DNA of 64,000 nt from Haemophilus massiliensis (GTDB lineage Bacteria; Pseudomonadota; Gammaproteobacteria; Enterobacterales; Pasteurellaceae). The stretch covers positions 385,679-449,678 of the forward strand of contig LM994634.1 in the NCBI GenBank assembly GCA_000752995.2. Reading direction: 5' to 3'. Positions 11,857 through 31,564 of the stretch are shown in pieces; position 1 is the first letter of the stretch; every line of letters starts with the position of its first letter. Under the pieces are notes generated by a model. It worked only from the letters and a program-made list of their open reading frames with translations. It ran no database searches and was not told the DNA's origin. A program made the translations under genes and the position numbers.

Positions 11857-12594
11857 ATGAAAAAAACAATCATATTTTTAACCGCACTTTCTGCCACTTT
11901 TTCGCTTTGGGCTGCAGAATTACATCTTTACGCCGGTGCGGGATTGAAATCGCCGGTAGAAAAAATCGTGAAGCAATTTGAACGGCAAACCGGTAATCAG
12001 GTAACGGTGGAATACGGCGGTTCGGGGCAATTATTGGCGCGTTATCAGGCGGTTAAAAAAGGCGATCTGTATTTACCCGGTTCTGAAGAATATGTGGATA
12101 AACTGGTGAAAGCCGGTGAGGTGAAAGAATTTGCACCTATTGTGCGGCATATTCCGGTGATGGCGATTAGAAAAGAAAAAAGCGCGGGTATTGATTCGTT
12201 CAAGGCGCTTGCACAAAGCGATCTTCGGCTAGGGATCGGGGATAGCAAAGCGATGGCACTCGGCAAAGGTGCGGAAAAAATGCTGGCATTGTCGGGTTAC
12301 GGTGAGGCTTTAAATGAAAAAATTGTGGTGCGTGCCGGCACCGTTCAGCAGTTGATGCTGTATTTGCTAAACGGTGATGTGGATGCAGCGGTGATTGGTC
12401 GCGCCGGCGCATGGAAACAGCGGGAAAAACTTGTGTTACTGCAAAATCCTGCCGGTACGCCGGAAGAACAGGTTACCATTGCGCTGTTGACAACCTCAGA
12501 AAATCCGACTCAAGCTAAAGCTTTATTGGAACTATTTAAATCCGCAGAAGGTATAAAATATTTCACCGATGAAGGATTCTTACCGATTAACTAG
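11857..12594 (+). CDS. modA: ModA-family molybdate-type ABC substrate-binding protein
   Basis: This 245-residue periplasmic protein has a signal peptide (about 1-19, ending LWA) and a ModA-like type II solute-binding fold: LHLYAGAGLKSPVEKIVKQFE, EYGGSGQLLARY and GTVQQLMLYLLNGDVDAAV. The family binds molybdate or tungstate. Permease, ATPase and ModD genes follow as overlapping or abutting genes, and a ModE-like box lies just upstream. An uptake signal lies in its signal-peptide codons (TAL). A sulfate-type or tungstate-specific ligand cannot be excluded. Confidence 0.8.
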   Translation: MKKTIIFLTALSATFSLWAAELHLYAGAGLKSPVEKIVKQFERQTGNQVTVEYGGSGQLLARYQAVKKGDLYLPGSEEYVDKLVKAGEVKEFAPIVRHIPVMAIRKEKSAGIDSFKALAQSDLRLGIGDSKAMALGKGAEKMLALSGYGEALNEKIVVRAGTVQQLMLYLLNGDVDAAVIGRAGAWKQREKLVLLQNPAGTPEEQVTIALLTTSENPTQAKALLELFKSAEGIKYFTDEGFLPIN

Positions 12595-13366
12595 CAGTCT
12601 CGGACAACGTTTATCTCTGCTCCCGCTATGCTTGTTTTTGGCGGTGATCGGCGGTGCGGTATTGGCATTAATCAATCAATTGGACGGGCATTTTTTTCGT
12701 CAAACGTTTGCGGATAAAGAGCTTTATTTTGCGCTGGCGATGTCGCTTGGTACCTCATTGTTATCTCTGTGCTTTGCAGTATTGATTGCATTGCCGTCCG
12801 CTTGGGTAATGAGCCGGATAACACTGCCGTTTCAGCGCATGATCGATACGCTTTTGGACTTACCTATGGTGCTGCCGCCTTTGGTTATCGGGCTGAGTCT
12901 GTTATTGCTGTTCAATGCGCAAGGTTATGTGGGGCAATGGTTTCCTTTTATCCGTGAACTGATTTTTAGCCCGCTCGGTATTATCGTCGCACAGACCTAT
13001 ATTGCCGCCTCCATTTTGCTACGCAATGCGCGCGGTGCGTTTTCTTCAATTGATCCGGGCTATTGTCTGGCGGCGTATAATTTGGGGCTTTCGCCGTTTA
13101 ACACCTTATGTCGCATTGAATTACCCATGTGTTTGAAACCATTATTGTGCGGTGCGATTCTGGCTTGGTCGCGAGCGATTGGGGAATTCGGCGCAACGTT
13201 AATGCTGGCGGGAGCAACCCGTTTTAAAACCGAAACCTTGCCAATGGCAATTTATTTAAATATTGCCAGCGGTGATTTTGAACTGGCAATCGGTGCGGCG
13301 ATCTGGCTTTTGCTGATTTCGGCGCTTTTGCTGCTGTTATTACGTGTCATTAATCGGAATATTTGA
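12569..13366 (+). CDS. modB: ModB-family ABC transporter permease
   Basis: The 265-residue inner-membrane protein has about six hydrophobic segments and the EAA-type coupling motif SRAIGEFGATLMLAGATRFK near residue 205, as in ModB/CysTW permeases. Its first 26 bp overlap the end of modA, so translation is probably coupled. It should carry molybdate or tungstate delivered by the ModA-like protein. Confidence 0.82.
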   Translation: MKDSYRLTSSLGQRLSLLPLCLFLAVIGGAVLALINQLDGHFFRQTFADKELYFALAMSLGTSLLSLCFAVLIALPSAWVMSRITLPFQRMIDTLLDLPMVLPPLVIGLSLLLLFNAQGYVGQWFPFIRELIFSPLGIIVAQTYIAASILLRNARGAFSSIDPGYCLAAYNLGLSPFNTLCRIELPMCLKPLLCGAILAWSRAIGEFGATLMLAGATRFKTETLPMAIYLNIASGDFELAIGAAIWLLLISALLLLLLRVINRNI

Positions 13367-17330: not shown

Positions 17331-19988
17331 TTAGAATTTGTAGCTTAGGCTTAGCACGAATGTGCGTCCGCGAGCCCAGTTGTTGAGAACGGATTTATTG
17401 CCGTCGCCGTCTTCTGCAAACATGGTGTAGTAGCGTTGGTTGGCAGAGTCGTTATTGGAATCCAGCGGATCGATATATTTTCTGTCAAACGCATTTTGTA
17501 ATTCGACTTTCAGTGTGAGATCCGCGATGGGTTCGTAGGTAATGTAGAAATCCCAAATTAGCGGCTGACGCTCGATCGTTTCTGTTGCTCGAATTTCCTG
17601 TTTTTTCAAATAGTTGTCATAGGTATTTTGTTCACCGATATTGACTTTATTAATGGTGGCGCGTTTGCTTTTGCCGTAGTAACGCATGGTGGTGCCGAGC
17701 GTGAGTTTTTGATCAAACCATCTTGTACCAATGTCCACTCGACCGTAATCGCGCGGTAGCATGGTGATTTTGCTTAACCCGTAACCCAGTTCCAGTTTGC
17801 CGGAGTTCAACTTCGGCGTAGCAGCCGGGCTGGCGTCGCTGAAATTGGTGGGCTGGTTGGTTTTTTGATAGGCGTAGGCAAGGTTGATATAAGCCCGCCC
17901 CATATCGTAGCTAAATTCCAGCTCCAACCCTTTTTTCGTTACTGTTTTAGCATAATTCTGATAGTGGATAATTTTGCTGAAACCGACCATTCTTGCCCAA
18001 TCAGGATGATAATTGTGTTGGTTATATATTTTCGAATCACCCCAGAATCCAAATGTATTATGAATATAATTTTTGATTTTGCTGCGGTAGCCGACGATTT
18101 TAAAGCCCAGCAGATCATCATCCCGGAATACCCCCTCTTTGAAGCCGTTGATTCCCAATTGGTAGGTATTGGCACGTTCCGGTTTCAGATCAGTTTTTAC
18201 CCCGAGATCACTTAAGTGTGAGAAAAACATTTCCTGAATATTCGGCATACGGTGAGTTCGGGAATAGTTGATAAACGGCATAAACAGCGGATGAAAATCA
18301 GCGCTTAAGGTCACAGAATGATTCAACGCATTTTTCTTACCGCTTTTATGCACCAGCGGTTCATAGTTTTCACATACGTCAACGCCCTCGCTTGGTGTGT
18401 AGCAAAGCTGTTTCCAAAGCGGAGAGTTTTTATCTAGTGTATCGCGTAAATCTGAACCTAAATAATATTCGGCATGTTCTCCGGTAAATTTATAACGAGT
18501 GAAATTGGTATTGTAAGCGAGATTGAAGCGCCCGAAATCTAGGCTGTTGTCGAGGTACCAGCTGTAAAACTGCTGTTTACCGGAAGGCTGCATGGTAATG
18601 GATTTTTGTGGCAATAAGGCTTTATTTCCTCGGTTATACATGCCATAAAACAATCCTAATTCATAAGGATAACGGCTTTTACTGTATTTATTTTTCAACA
18701 CATTGAAACCTACGGTAGTTTTTAACCGCACTTCCTGTGGCAATTCTATATTGAAGCTATTATTGATATCCAGCAGATCCGCATTATTTTTTGTTTCCAG
18801 TGGTGAGCGAACGGTTTTACCGGCGAACAGAGAGCCTGCTGCATATTTTTGTATACCGACATTATGGGCGAGCAATAAGTGCAGATCTAAATAGTCTCCT
18901 TTGTTGATGCCATAATTTAACTGATAGTTTTTGGTATCAATGGTACGCCCGGCAACATAGTTATGTAGGCTACGAAATTGCAGCGTGAGGGCATGCAGAT
19001 CGTCCATATATTCCAATTTTGCCAGATGACTGTGTGATTTTTGTCGTAATGAATCGGGATCAATAGGTTTCACATCAAATTGATGCACTAAATCTTCCTG
19101 CCAGCTTTTTTCCGTCTCGGCAACCGCTTCTTCGACGGTTAGGCATCTTACCCCTCTTAAACATTTCACTTTTGGCATATACCAGCCGTTGATATCCTCC
19201 CATTTGCCATTGATAAACTCTAATCCGCTTAATTCCCGAAAATAGAATTTTTTTCTATCTTCAAGGAATTTTTCTCCCGCGTTGCGGATCAATTCACCGC
19301 CGCCGTAGCGATAATCTTGTGAAATTTTACGATGACTGTAGCCGTACAATATCCCAAAATAACCGCCGTTATCTAAAGGCTGGCGGAATGCGGCGGTGGC
19401 AGCATAATTCGGTTCGGTCGCATTAGTGCCGGTCAGACCTTTGAGTAATATACCGAATCGATCGCCGTCTTTAACCACATCATTCACACCCAATGTCCGA
19501 AAATCCGCTGCGCCAAATAAACTGTTGATTCCGCTTTTACCGCTGAAACTGCCGCGCGACAGTTCCACATCGGCGATAAAATTCGGATCGATATTCGCGC
19601 CGAATTGCGAGGTGCCGCCGGCGCGCCCTTTGCTGTCTGCCGCCGCGGAATAAAAGGTTTGTGGTACGCCGTCAATAAGCGCATTGGCCCGCCCGAAACC
19701 TGATTCGCCGCGAATATTTACAGACAGCACACCGGAACTTTTATCCTGTTGAGTAAAGGCACCCGGCATGCTGCGTATTACCGTATCGAGTGTTTGTGTG
19801 GAATTATACAGATCTTCTTTTACGCTGACGGCTTTTGCCTGTGTAAAGGTTCTCTTTGCCGTTTCCCCGGAAGACGTCCCTACCTTGCCTTCCACATTGA
19901 TTTGTTCTAATTGTTCTGTGTCGGCATAGGCTTGCAGTGAACAGCCCACTGCAAGGGTTGCGATGCCGAGTGTTATCAAATAATTCAT
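17331..19988 (-). CDS. TonB-dependent outer-membrane receptor, iron-regulated
   Basis: The 885-residue protein has a signal peptide (about 1-22, ending QAYA), a TonB box-like segment (EQINVEG, about 28-34), a plug domain (roughly 45-170, with NIRGESGFGRANALIDGV) and a C-terminal 22-strand barrel ending in Phe (LSLSYKF). Two Cys pairs occur in extracellular-loop positions (KCLRGVRCL and LCYTPSEGVDVCE). A perfect Fur-box palindrome lies just upstream, so it should import heme, transferrin-derived iron or a siderophore. No adjacent ABC genes identify the ligand. Confidence 0.9.
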   Translation of the reverse strand: MNYLITLGIATLAVGCSLQAYADTEQLEQINVEGKVGTSSGETAKRTFTQAKAVSVKEDLYNSTQTLDTVIRSMPGAFTQQDKSSGVLSVNIRGESGFGRANALIDGVPQTFYSAAADSKGRAGGTSQFGANIDPNFIADVELSRGSFSGKSGINSLFGAADFRTLGVNDVVKDGDRFGILLKGLTGTNATEPNYAATAAFRQPLDNGGYFGILYGYSHRKISQDYRYGGGELIRNAGEKFLEDRKKFYFRELSGLEFINGKWEDINGWYMPKVKCLRGVRCLTVEEAVAETEKSWQEDLVHQFDVKPIDPDSLRQKSHSHLAKLEYMDDLHALTLQFRSLHNYVAGRTIDTKNYQLNYGINKGDYLDLHLLLAHNVGIQKYAAGSLFAGKTVRSPLETKNNADLLDINNSFNIELPQEVRLKTTVGFNVLKNKYSKSRYPYELGLFYGMYNRGNKALLPQKSITMQPSGKQQFYSWYLDNSLDFGRFNLAYNTNFTRYKFTGEHAEYYLGSDLRDTLDKNSPLWKQLCYTPSEGVDVCENYEPLVHKSGKKNALNHSVTLSADFHPLFMPFINYSRTHRMPNIQEMFFSHLSDLGVKTDLKPERANTYQLGINGFKEGVFRDDDLLGFKIVGYRSKIKNYIHNTFGFWGDSKIYNQHNYHPDWARMVGFSKIIHYQNYAKTVTKKGLELEFSYDMGRAYINLAYAYQKTNQPTNFSDASPAATPKLNSGKLELGYGLSKITMLPRDYGRVDIGTRWFDQKLTLGTTMRYYGKSKRATINKVNIGEQNTYDNYLKKQEIRATETIERQPLIWDFYITYEPIADLTLKVELQNAFDRKYIDPLDSNNDSANQRYYTMFAEDGDGNKSVLNNWARGRTFVLSLSYKF

Positions 19989-28041: not shown

Positions 28042-29277
28042 ATGACAAAAGATACCGAATTACATTGCTCTTTTTGCGGTAAAGAACAAAAAGAAGTGGA
28101 AAAATTAATTGCTGGCACATCGGGATATATTTGCAATGAATGTATTGAATTGTGCCACGATATGCTACATGAGACGCCGCATCCCGATGATGAGCGGCAA
28201 AATGACGATGAGATGAAATTGCCGACACCGCACGAAATCCGTGCCCACCTGGACGATTATGTCATCGGGCAGGATTATGCCAAGAAAGTACTGGCGGTGG
28301 CGGTGTATAATCATTACAAACGCCAGCGCAGCCAGCAGCAGAATAACGATGTGGAACTGGGCAAAAGCAATATTTTGCTCATTGGCCCGACCGGCAGCGG
28401 TAAAACTCTGCTGGCGGAAACCCTTGCCCGTATGCTCAATGTACCGTTTGCTATGGCCGATGCCACGACCCTAACCGAAGCTGGCTATGTGGGCGAAGAT
28501 GTGGAAAACGTGTTGCAGAAGCTACTACAGAACTGCGATTATGATATTGAGCGTGCTGAGCAGGGCATTATCTATATTGACGAAATCGACAAAATTACGC
28601 GCAAGTCGGAAAATCCGTCGATTACCCGTGACGTGTCCGGTGAAGGGGTGCAACAGGCATTGCTGAAGCTGGTGGAAGGCACGATCGCATCAATTCCGCC
28701 GCAGGGGGGGCGTAAACATCCGCAACAGGAAATGCTGCGTTTGGATACCTCGAAAATTCTGTTTATTTGCGGTGGCGCCTTTGCCGGTCTGGATAAAATC
28801 GTGGAAAAACGTACCCATATCGGCAGCGGAATCGGTTTCGGCGCGGAAGTAAAAGGCGAATCGGATAAAGCGAGTTTAACTGAACTATTCAGTCAGGTCG
28901 AACCGGATGATTTAATGAAATTCGGTTTAATTCCCGAATTTATCGGTCGTTTACCGGTGATTGCACCGTTAAGTGAACTGGACGAAGAGGCGCTGGTTAA
29001 AATTCTGACCGAACCGAAAAATGCGTTGACTAAGCAATATCAGGTACTCTTTGGCTTGGAAAATGTAGCGCTGGAATTTACCCCGCAGGCGCTACGGGCA
29101 ATGGCGAAAAAAGCTCTTGAACGTAAAACCGGTGCGCGCGGATTACGCTCTATTGTAGAAGGTTTGTTACTGGACACCATGTATGATCTACCATCATTGG
29201 AACAGCTGCATAAAGTTGTGGTAGAAGAACAAACCGTAACCGAGAATACCTCGCCAAAGCTGGAATTTAATCAGTAA
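28042..29277 (+). CDS. clpX: ClpX, ATPase specificity subunit of ClpXP
   Basis: The 411-residue AAA+ unfoldase has an N-terminal zinc finger (C9, C12, C31, C34), Walker A GPTGSGKT (115-122), the pore loop GYVGED (148-153), Walker B IIYIDEID (175-182) and the ClpP-docking IGF loop (263-265). It delivers tagged proteins, including ssrA-tagged chains, to ClpP. It shares an operon with clpP and ends at an uptake-signal terminator; the CRISPR array starts about 110 bp downstream. Confidence 0.97.
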
Positions 29278-29390: not shown

Positions 29391-31015
29391 ATTTCAACAC
29401 ACGGTTATGCGTAGGTAGCCGGGTAAACGGGTATTACCGCCGTCAGCGATAATGTAGTTTCAACACACGGCTACGCGTAGGTAGCCGGAAAATCAGTTAA
29501 TAAATTGCCTAGTCGAGCTGTCGTTTCAACACGCGGCTACGCGTAGGTAGCCGGGTATAATCGCCATAAAAGGCGTGCGCCACCTGCTGTTTCAACACGC
29601 GGCTACGCGTAGGTAGCCGGCCAACAACTGCCAATACGGCACCTGCTACGAACTGTTTCAACACGCGGCTACGCGTAGGTAGCCGGCAAGTTGTATCAAC
29701 AAATGCCACATCGCCTTTATGTTTCAACACACGGCTATGCGTAGATAGCCGGGCAATAAAAATACCCACCAAAACGGTTTGTCGTAGTTTCAACACACGG
29801 CTATGCGTAGATAGCCGGGACCTATACTGATTATTTAGAGGGGCAATCGGATGTTTCAACACACGGCTATGCGTAGATAGCCGGCAACGCTCGGATTAAA
29901 TCTTATGCGGCAATTTCTGTTTCAACACACGACTATGCGTAGATAGCCGGCGGAACGGTTGACGAGTTTTTAGCAAAATCAGCGGTTTCAACACACGACT
30001 ATGCGTAGATAGCCGGCGGACGTAATCTAAAACATGCTTTAGCACAAGCTGTTTCAACACACGACTATGCGTAGATAGCCGGAACGGGTGATTTACCCAA
30101 TCCCGGTGACTTGGTGGTTTCAACACACGACTATGCGTAGATAGCCGGTTAAGCGACTACGAATTTTATGCGCCGACCACACCGTTTCAACACACGACTA
30201 TGCGTAGATAGCCGGCGCAATTAGCTGATGCAACATATCAGCCGGGGCAGGTTTCAACACACGACTATGCGTAGATAGCCGGCCGCCGTAGCGCTGAATA
30301 AGCAGGTTAAAGATCTTGTTTCAACACACGACTATGCGTAGATAGCCGGAAGCAACAACACTTCTACCAGGTTGCAGAATCCAGTTTCAACACACGACTA
30401 TGCGTAGATAGCCGGCGCCAATTGTCCGCGCGGGCGTCTGCTCCACATCGTTTCAACACACGACTATGCGTAGATAGCCGGCAAGGCATCTTTGAATAGG
30501 TGTTCATATGCAATCGGTTTCAACACACGACTATGCGTAGATAGCCGGAAATTAGACTGGACAGACAATCCGGCGATCATGCTGTTTCAACACACGACTA
30601 TGCGTAGATAGCCGGGAAACCCGTTATTGTTTGCTTTTGCAAAAAGAGGTGTTTCAACACACGACTATGCGTAGATAGCCGGCGAAACAGTAAAAATGCA
30701 GGAGCAACACAATGCAGGTTTCAACACACGACTATGCGTAGATAGCCGGGAACGCGAAATTTCATGCCATGTGCCAAGACGTAGCGTTTCAACACACGAC
30801 TATGCGTAGATAGCCGGTTCAATTTATTTTGGATAAGAAAGGTATTAAGCGTTTCAACACACGACTATGCGTAGATAGCCGGGACAGGCGTTCGTGATAT
30901 TGTCGGCTTTATGAATGTTTCAACACACGACTATGCGTAGATAGCCGGACCTCAAGAACGTTAAGAAACCCGCAACGCCAAAAGTTTCAACACACGACTA
31001 TGCGTAGATAGCCGG
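29391..31015 (-). CRISPR. CRISPR array, 25 repeats of 32 bp and 24 spacers
   Basis: Repeats start at 29391, 29457, 29523, 29589, 29655, 29721, 29787, 29853, 29919, 29985, 30051, 30117, 30184, 30251, 30318, 30384, 30450, 30517, 30584, 30651, 30718, 30786, 30851, 30917 and 30984. On the minus strand the repeat runs from CCGGCTA to GTGTTGAAAC, the orientation expected of the mature repeat, so transcription is probably minus with the leader at the right. Spacers are 33-36 nt and none is duplicated. Repeat 1 is degenerate, marking the old end. Variants: 2 with ACACACGGCTACGCG; 3-5 with ACACGCGGCTACGCG; 6-8 with ACACACGGCTATGCG; 9-25 with ACACACGACTATGCG. A 32-bp repeat with about 34-nt spacers and this tail suits subtype I-C best, but no cas gene is in the window to prove it. 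Confidence 0.97.
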
Positions 31016-31249
31016 AGCCTTGTTGGCAAAAGGCGAGGGTTCTGGCTTGAAATGCAAGAATTCGCTGATCTGCAACAAAAAGGCAGATAGCAAGTATAAC
31101 ATAGTTGTATTTATGTTATATCAATAAGTTAAGTATCTGATTTGTTAAAGAAACATAGAATTCGCTAACCTAGAAGGATTTTATGTGAACCAACGGTTAG
31201 CGATTAGATAATGAATATATCTTTAAAAATATTCGGGGCAGATTGCGCC
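31016..31249 (-). promoter_or_regulatory. Presumed CRISPR leader, AT-rich with dyads
   Basis: The region beside the youngest repeats contains a perfect inverted repeat TATAACATA, 8 nt, TATGTTATA (31095-31120), another CGCTAACC/GGTTAGCG (31163-31202), a small hairpin ATCTGC/GCAGAT (31068-31088) and the decamer AGAATTCGCT twice, exactly 100 bp apart (31057 and 31157). A minus-strand promoter candidate is TTGATA (31124-31119) with TATACT (31098-31093), but the 20-bp spacer is long. No gene is seen here. Confidence 0.5.
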
Positions 31250-31537
31250 CTAACGCCGTAGTTTTCCGATTTTTACCCCTAAAAAGCCGAGAGATACCGG
31301 ATCCAGATAATCGCCTAAAAATTTAAATAATTCATGCAAATCGGTGAAAGTGCGGTTGATTTTTACTTGATCTTCCACTTTGCGGGTGAACTCGTAAGTA
31401 ATCGCGCTGCCGTCGATATGGGCTTCTAAGGTCAGATAGACTTTTTCAAAAAAGTGGCTGCGTGCGCCTTCTTCGCCCGGATCACTGATACGTACATTCC
31501 AGTTGTTGCTGAATAAGACTTCCGTTTTAATCGACAT
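31250..31537 (-). CDS. Small uncharacterised protein (DUF5377-like)
   Basis: The 95-residue soluble protein has no signal peptide, membrane segment or recognisable catalytic motif. It recalls a Pasteurellaceae-restricted family that I think is DUF5377. I start at 31537 (SIKTEVLFSNNW) because AGAGG is 8 nt upstream. An uptake signal lies in its codons, so it is resident rather than recently acquired. It sits between the CRISPR leader and arfA on the same strand but shows nothing Cas-like. Confidence 0.65.
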   Translation of the reverse strand: MSIKTEVLFSNNWNVRISDPGEEGARSHFFEKVYLTLEAHIDGSAITYEFTRKVEDQVKINRTFTDLHELFKFLGDYLDPVSLGFLGVKIGKLRR

Positions 31538-31564
31538 AATAATGACCTCTGTGGTTTGCATAAT

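Follow-up and report, generated by a model that had tools for sequence, protein, structure and literature searches.

In a 64,000-nucleotide stretch of Haemophilus massiliensis DNA, hereafter the window, a CRISPR array at positions 29391-31015 carries repeats that change in blocks, with both arms of the repeat stem switching at one boundary. The array comprises 25 repeats, each 32 bases long, and 24 spacers of 33–36 bases. We regard it as likely that this is a type I-C array lying apart from its cas genes and served by them in trans, and that its founder repeat changed stepwise, with the intermediates now gone. The best reading of the zoned repeats is that they evolved in the ordinary way, in order of time, and that some steps are missing. 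The location of the array and its synteny, the conservation of its leader, the single cas1 and cas5c of the genome, the repeat blocks and the sequences similar to 10 of the 24 spacers are all direct observations.

The array resembles known type I-C arrays (Cas5c/Cas8c/Cas7) in its 32-base repeat ending GTTGAAAC, 7-pair stem and 6-base loop, as well as in the spacer lengths, the leader, the TTC or TTT often seen upstream of putative protospacers and the I-C cas locus in the genome. Unlike them, it has no adjoining cas genes, five repeat variants and a weak predicted stem in the majority repeat. Read from the clpX side, where the oldest repeats lie, towards the leader, the repeats form the blocks 1, 2, 3–5, 6–8 and 9–25, each uninterrupted (Table 1). 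The minus-strand stem reads CGGCTAC/GTAGCCG in repeats 2–5, CGGCTAT/ATAGCCG in 6–8 and CGGCTAT/ATAGTCG in 9–25.

Table 1 Features of the array and its flanks. Repeat bases are numbered 1–32 on the minus strand (crRNA sense), with the stem formed by bases 2–8 and 15–21 and the loop by bases 9–14.
Feature	Positions	Strand	Description
clpX-like ORF	28042..29277	+	old side of the array; presumably clpX-like, named from its sequence by eye
Repeat 1	29391..29422	-	oldest, degenerate; C8.A15 and C5.A18 mismatched, C32T
Repeat 2	29457..29488	-	consensus CCGGCTACCTACGCGTAGCCGTGTGTTGAAAC
Repeats 3–5 with spacers	29523..29686	-	T22C (plus-strand A11G); stem as in repeat 2
Repeats 6–8 with spacers	29721..29884	-	T22 restored; C8T with G15A, which turns pair 8-15 from C-G into T-A
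Repeats 9–25 with spacers	29919..31015	-	additional C19T (pair 4-19 from G-C to G.U)
Leader	31016..31227	-	212 bases compared
End of cas-locus homology	31228..31249	.	reaches about the last cas2 codons there
103-aa ORF	31250..31561	-	leader side

These zones and stem sequences had been given in a preliminary description of the sequence, and they are borne out: there are 25 repeats in uninterrupted blocks, and both arms switch at the boundary between repeats 5 and 6. Its view that the blocks succeeded one another from the old end to the leader end is likewise supported. The two-sided switch at that boundary stands, but the description had overlooked the reversal of T22C, which lies outside the stem, so that the boundary holds three differences (C8T, G15A and the reversal) and not two. 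No half-step, that is, no one-sided intermediate, is present among repeats 2–25.

No cas genes adjoin the array, a point that the preliminary description had missed, and neither a cas1 nor a cas5c is found nearby. The sole cas1 and the sole cas5c of the genome both lie on another contig, C9, in a locus with the full type I-C set (cas3, cas5c, cas8c, cas7, cas4, cas1 and cas2), and this single locus would serve the array of the window in trans. The preliminary description had named Cas6/Cas5; what the genome carries is cas5c, of type I-C, and type I-C systems use Cas5c. The cas-linked array on C9 is nearly invariant: 36 of its 37 repeats, a count that omits a duplicated five-repeat piece ahead of an N run, are the same as repeat 2 of the window. 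The sequence of repeat 2 is also that of the majority repeat in the cas-linked array of Necropsobacter massiliensis, as it is in the genome's own.

The leader of the window has 1 difference in 212 bases to the leader of a stand-alone array in N. massiliensis, versus 14 to the cas-linked leader of its own genome and 11 to that of N. massiliensis. Its first 54 bases are the same in both stand-alone leaders and in the N. massiliensis cas leader. Homology to the cas locus continues past the leader and extends in the C9 stretch L011 to position 17479, with the cas2 frame taken as 17453-17722. Because the leader is paralogous to that of C9 and the homology goes on to about the end of cas2, the stand-alone array most likely arose by duplication from a cas locus. 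The 103-aa ORF beyond the leader had no NCBIfam match.

Some further features of the cas-linked loci were observed. In the genome's own I-C locus, a SLATT-domain protein is encoded between cas4 and cas1 (L012:593-1093). A segment of C9 that contains a 277-aa ORF and the initial array repeats occurs twice at an offset of 3.1 kb (L011:10582-15118), and this duplication around the N run (12017-13307) may be a scaffold artefact or reflect a masked stretch. The C9 array also holds identical spacers, both adjacent (15 and 16) and apart (14 and 24), and in L014 spacers 22-23 reappear as 43-44.

A scan of our genome collection found the repeat type of the window in the relatives Necropsobacter rosorum and N. 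massiliensis. When any base was allowed at sites 8 and 15, with up to 2 mismatches, the repeat pattern occurred in 3 of 140 genomes, none of them outside Necropsobacter. N. massiliensis carries its stand-alone array (L013) at the orthologous site, between flanks that are 91–92% identical. The two arrays are alike in their site, their leader and the order of T22C repeats followed by T22 repeats; they differ in that the N. massiliensis array has 7 repeats, no spacers in common with the window and no T8-A15 repeats. Zero shared spacers next to a conserved leader suggest turnover since the split. None of the window spacers recurs in five Necropsobacter arrays, and repeats of this type that combine T8 with A15 were absent from the 67 + 7 + 55 repeats read in the two other genomes of the genus. 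In N. rosorum, the 103-aa ORF stands with no array beside it, and the genome paper of that species reports one array (PMC4192374).

The stand-alone arrays are the more varied ones in two of these genomes. Non-majority repeats make up 8 of 25 in the window versus 1 of 37 in the cas-linked array of the same genome (P=0.002), and 5 of 7 versus 0 of 67 in N. massiliensis (P=1e-6). This may reflect slower acquisition, with which more mutations would fall between acquisitions. Against it, a large survey found that, among arrays sharing a repeat, those close to cas genes and those far away acquire new spacers to about the same extent (PMC12814883). The cas-linked array of N. rosorum is highly varied too, with 29 of 55 non-majority repeats; therefore, distance from cas genes is not required for variety. 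That array (L015, 6909-10531) is a mosaic of recurrent repeat variants, and its repeat 4 combines the 5' half of one variant with the 3' half of another and resembles a junction. Both features go beyond simple leader-proximal copying.

The reversal of T22C in the window, together with the T22C-then-T22 order in N. massiliensis, indicates that repeats 5 and 6 probably did not succeed each other in time. Judging from these sequences, there is probably a gap at the boundary, and the earlier idea of a switch between true temporal neighbours is not supported. If the T22C block is common by descent, the return to T22 predates the changes at sites 8 and 15, and repeats of the consensus type used to separate what are now repeats 5 and 6. 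As no spacers are shared with N. massiliensis, the lost units cannot be identified one by one, and each species may have acquired its T22C block independently. In published work, the rate of spacer deletion exceeds that of mutation per site by a median factor of 374 (PMC11472070). At such a rate the loss of intermediates is to be expected, and a gap of this kind is ordinary.

We propose the following course of events. Each new unit would join at the leader with a copy of the repeat nearest to it, whereby a mutation in this founder repeat would become a block. The change from C8-G15 to T8-A15 would have taken separate single steps, most easily with C8T first, through a U-G wobble. The units with the intermediate and with the return from T22C to T22 would have disappeared by spacer deletion, or the founder repeat would have been overwritten when it recombined with a different repeat. 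The stem presumably tolerates such changes because pairing persists, though it becomes weaker every time.

Half-steps can be read in other arrays. Repeat 28 of the N. rosorum array has C8T with G15 kept (a U-G wobble), which is the exact half-step of the change in the window, in a single repeat that has other differences too. Pair 3-20 of the same array runs through G-C, A.C, A-U and G.U across repeats 2–6 and is G-C again in repeats 7–9, although repeat 4 in this series is the one that resembles a junction. In L025, one A.C repeat at pair 7-16 lies exactly between a G-C block and an A-U block; L054 has one A.C repeat and L035 two U-G repeats. Of the seven arrays in which two-sided changes occur, four retain half-steps outside the oldest repeat, and none was found in L026, L057 or the window array, which weighs against the stepwise course. 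Two-sided changes in Pasteurellaceae can thus proceed one side at a time, via wobbles as well as mismatches.

The frequency of such changes was surveyed in 66 arrays of the window type with at least 5 repeats, 46 from Pasteurellaceae and 20 from other Gammaproteobacteria, the I-C type being assigned by repeat end and cas1 neighbour alone and the oldest repeat of each array being excluded. The Pasteurellaceae arrays came from stretches beside chosen cas1 matches (59, mostly high-scoring and I-C-like, and 8 more) and from the Necropsobacter loci; the outside set covered 32 of the 33 genomes with matches, the 33rd being the genome of the window itself. Several of the surveyed stretches end at contig ends. 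Arrays with repeats ending in GAAAC were kept (76 before further exclusions), which left out the I-C-like Pasteurellaceae arrays ending in TAAAC (L047, with 48 invariant repeats, and L059, with 18 repeats). L070, L076 and L078 were excluded as another type, as were the small L011 duplicate and, for having under 5 repeats, 8 further arrays.

A stem pair with two Watson-Crick states that differ in both partners was present in 7 of the 46 Pasteurellaceae arrays and in 0 of the 20 others. The seven arrays (that of the window, L015 from N. rosorum, L025, L026, L035, L054 and L057) span four genera, and the independent events among them are perhaps only four or five. Beyond these, two-sided pairs that involve only the oldest repeat occur in L020, L043 and L056, and one that involves the second-oldest in L076. 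The description of two-sided substitution within one array as unusual thus finds no support. Variation in bases 2–31 was found in 28 of the 46 Pasteurellaceae arrays versus 3 of the 20 others, and the zero of the outside set therefore says little, as those arrays have few variants of any kind. Variants recurring after a gap were seen in 6 of the 46 and 1 of the 20 arrays (bases 2–31); with the first and last base counted, which are liable to edge error, 31 of the 46 vary and 9 show recurrence. Such recurrence means that simple leader-proximal copying is not the whole story in Pasteurellaceae. As a separate observation, base 1 of the repeat differs from unit to unit in L026, L048, L088 and L116 while the remainder is nearly constant, which suggests that base 1 arrives with the spacer.

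Across arrays, the co-change of pairing partners exceeds chance. Compared with re-paired controls, 10 (array, pair) cases were counted where 3.82 were expected (P=0.0004; 11 informative of 66 arrays), a statistic that counts joint change whether or not pairing results, and in which variants inside one array share descent. With one array per genus there were 7 versus 2.96 expected (P=0.007), and 6 versus 2.66 (P=0.017) when the window was left out. L035 scores 0 by this measure despite its two Watson-Crick states, its majority state being a mixed pair. The N. rosorum array was merged for the co-change, base-rate and recurrence counts (66 arrays) and split in two for the comparison of G-U with A-C below (67 arrays). 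Within the window array, a partner pair would be hit by chance in 84 of 364 placements (23%) when 3 of the 14 stem positions are changed, and in 7 of 91 (8%) when two are. At this chance level, the window array taken alone is weak evidence for constraint, and the test over many arrays is the stronger one.

Further tallies show what becomes of stem pairs. Single-sided states were G-U rather than A-C by 27 to 13 (P=0.04 against one half), with no excess relative to unpaired positions, where identical base changes stand at 23 to 15 (Fisher P=0.64). Broken pairs make up 37 of the 64 single-sided stem states. The two-sided states comprise 7 Watson-Crick, 1 G-U and 5 broken ones.

The preliminary description took the minus strand as the one that forms the hairpin. 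This holds, as the stem forms on that strand in predicted folds and the protospacer flanks agree with minus-strand crRNAs. Furthermore, the stem is predicted to form in every variant among repeats 2–25, yet its stability is not preserved: the minus-strand values fall from -11.4 kcal/mol in repeat 2 to -11.1 in repeats 3–5, -9.3 in repeats 6–8 and -6.6 in repeats 9–25, where the stem-pair probabilities are 0.68–0.78. The C8T half-step alone would give -9.6 kcal/mol, and every stem step in the array lowers the predicted stability. C19T creates a G-U pair on the minus strand only, and the plus-strand fold falls to -4.1 kcal/mol. Among the surveyed arrays compared, the majority repeat of the window has the second-weakest predicted stem, L031 being weaker (-6.2). 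Strong selection for pairing, as first proposed, is not supported by a stem that is weaker at each step and by a G-U to A-C ratio like that at unpaired sites, and we rejected strict selection on these grounds. The data fit better with tolerance of moderate weakening than with defence of the stem.

Other origins of the boundary between repeats 5 and 6 have to be weighed against stepwise change with lost intermediates. It is unlikely, in our estimate, that repeats 6–25 were imported by inter-repeat recombination from an array of the same type, in another strain or since lost, which would make the boundary a junction. Three differences at a single boundary, one of them a reversal, would suit such an event, as would the recurrence of variants after gaps in Pasteurellaceae, the joining of two variants in repeat 4 of N. 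rosorum and the 54 leader bases that the two stand-alone leaders share with the N. massiliensis cas leader. However, a donor with T8 and A15 is missing from the arrays read in the other two Necropsobacter genomes, the pattern left free at both sites was confined to the genus among the 140 genomes, and the leader and both flanks are of the local type. A misjoining of two arrays during assembly, which the preliminary description had itself raised, is extremely improbable. The genome does hold a second array of near-identical repeats, whose assembly is duplicated around the N run, but repeats like 6–25 occur nowhere else in the genome by exact pattern, the window spacers are absent from the five Necropsobacter arrays, and flanks and leader are collinear with the N. 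massiliensis locus. A misassembly with the cas-linked array was rejected for these reasons.

We also consider it quite unlikely that both arms changed in one event, in which a polymerase would have copied one arm of the leader-proximal repeat from the other, so that the half-step was absent or very brief and no selection was needed. Template switching has been published as a process that can create compensatory substitutions in the stems of RNAs (PMC8794818), no half-step is left in repeats 2–25, and the excess of partner co-change across arrays is predicted by templating as well as by selection. Yet a perfect stem requires a prior mutation before templating can act, so that only the second step would be replaced. 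Half-steps stand as separate repeats in other arrays, and the T22C reversal, outside the stem, would be left unexplained. The change at pair 8-15 is an isolated single pair with the same loop on both sides of the boundary, in which a template-switch footprint is neither present nor excluded; an isolated base change bears no footprint of the mechanism (see also PMC8794818). A broader version, which we hold to be highly unlikely, places the origin of the two-sided excess at spacer integration, where the opened repeat would fold and one arm would template the other, keeping the hairpin without selection. If this were true, the adaptation machinery would help to maintain the crRNA hairpin, and the arrays of this family would preserve RNA-helix evolution as an ordered fossil record, half-steps included.

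Among the titles and abstracts searched, none was found that deals with stems changing on both sides from block to block within an array; the scope of this search did not include Mitrofanov et al. 2026 (microLife uqaf050), reportedly a large-scale study of repeat mutations. Compensatory changes and G:U pairs are known to keep CRISPR repeat stems between organisms (Kunin et al. 2007, PMC1896005), whereas those in the window lie between blocks of one array and are ordered by acquisition. The CRISPRDetect paper (PMC4869251) describes how a mutated repeat passes its mutations on to new repeats; the block-wise inheritance of variants is alike there, and the pairing of the changes is the distinct point of the window array. 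A two-sided change inside one array is thus a natural consequence of compensatory change and repeat copying, both of which are known. Trees are the usual basis for inferring compensatory change in RNA helices, while here a single molecule preserves the sequence of events, and half-steps persist at pair 3-20 of N. rosorum and pair 7-16 of L025. Thousands of arrays could serve as cheap data on whether helices change via wobble or mismatch intermediates. What follows for the array of the window itself is modest: a single Cas5c would face predicted stems of -11.4 and -6.6 kcal/mol in the same cell.

Sequences similar to ten of the spacers (1, 2, 3, 6, 7, 8, 9, 11, 19 and 21), from all zones, were found in Pasteurellaceae genomes or plasmids, and spacer 2 matches three Aggregatibacter plasmids; a comparison of the array with phage records gave no match (E up to 0.01). 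The adjacent motif of type I-C systems is TTC. The triplets directly 5' of the protospacers in crRNA sense, from 22 matches of 9 spacers, were TTC in 7 cases, TTT in 6 and another triplet in 9, and 5 of the 9 spacers have at least one TTC match, most matches being imperfect relatives and not necessarily the true sources. These flanks support the minus-strand orientation of the crRNAs. At least one spacer in each of the zones 1, 3–5, 6–8 and 9–25 has TTC or TTT directly 5', the flank of the one protospacer match in zone 2 being outside the triplet counts, which suggests, from sequence matches, that zones of all ages arose by acquisition of the I-C type. The 11 oldest spacers are all 34 bases long, and only 3 of the 13 younger ones (33–36 bases) are (Fisher P=0.00015, for a comparison picked post hoc); this shift falls at no boundary between repeat blocks. 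The neighbouring spacers 8 and 9 match another Pasteurellaceae genome at sites that lie about 140 bp from each other; this is so at two places of that genome (L124 and L125), in a region of short coding repeats.
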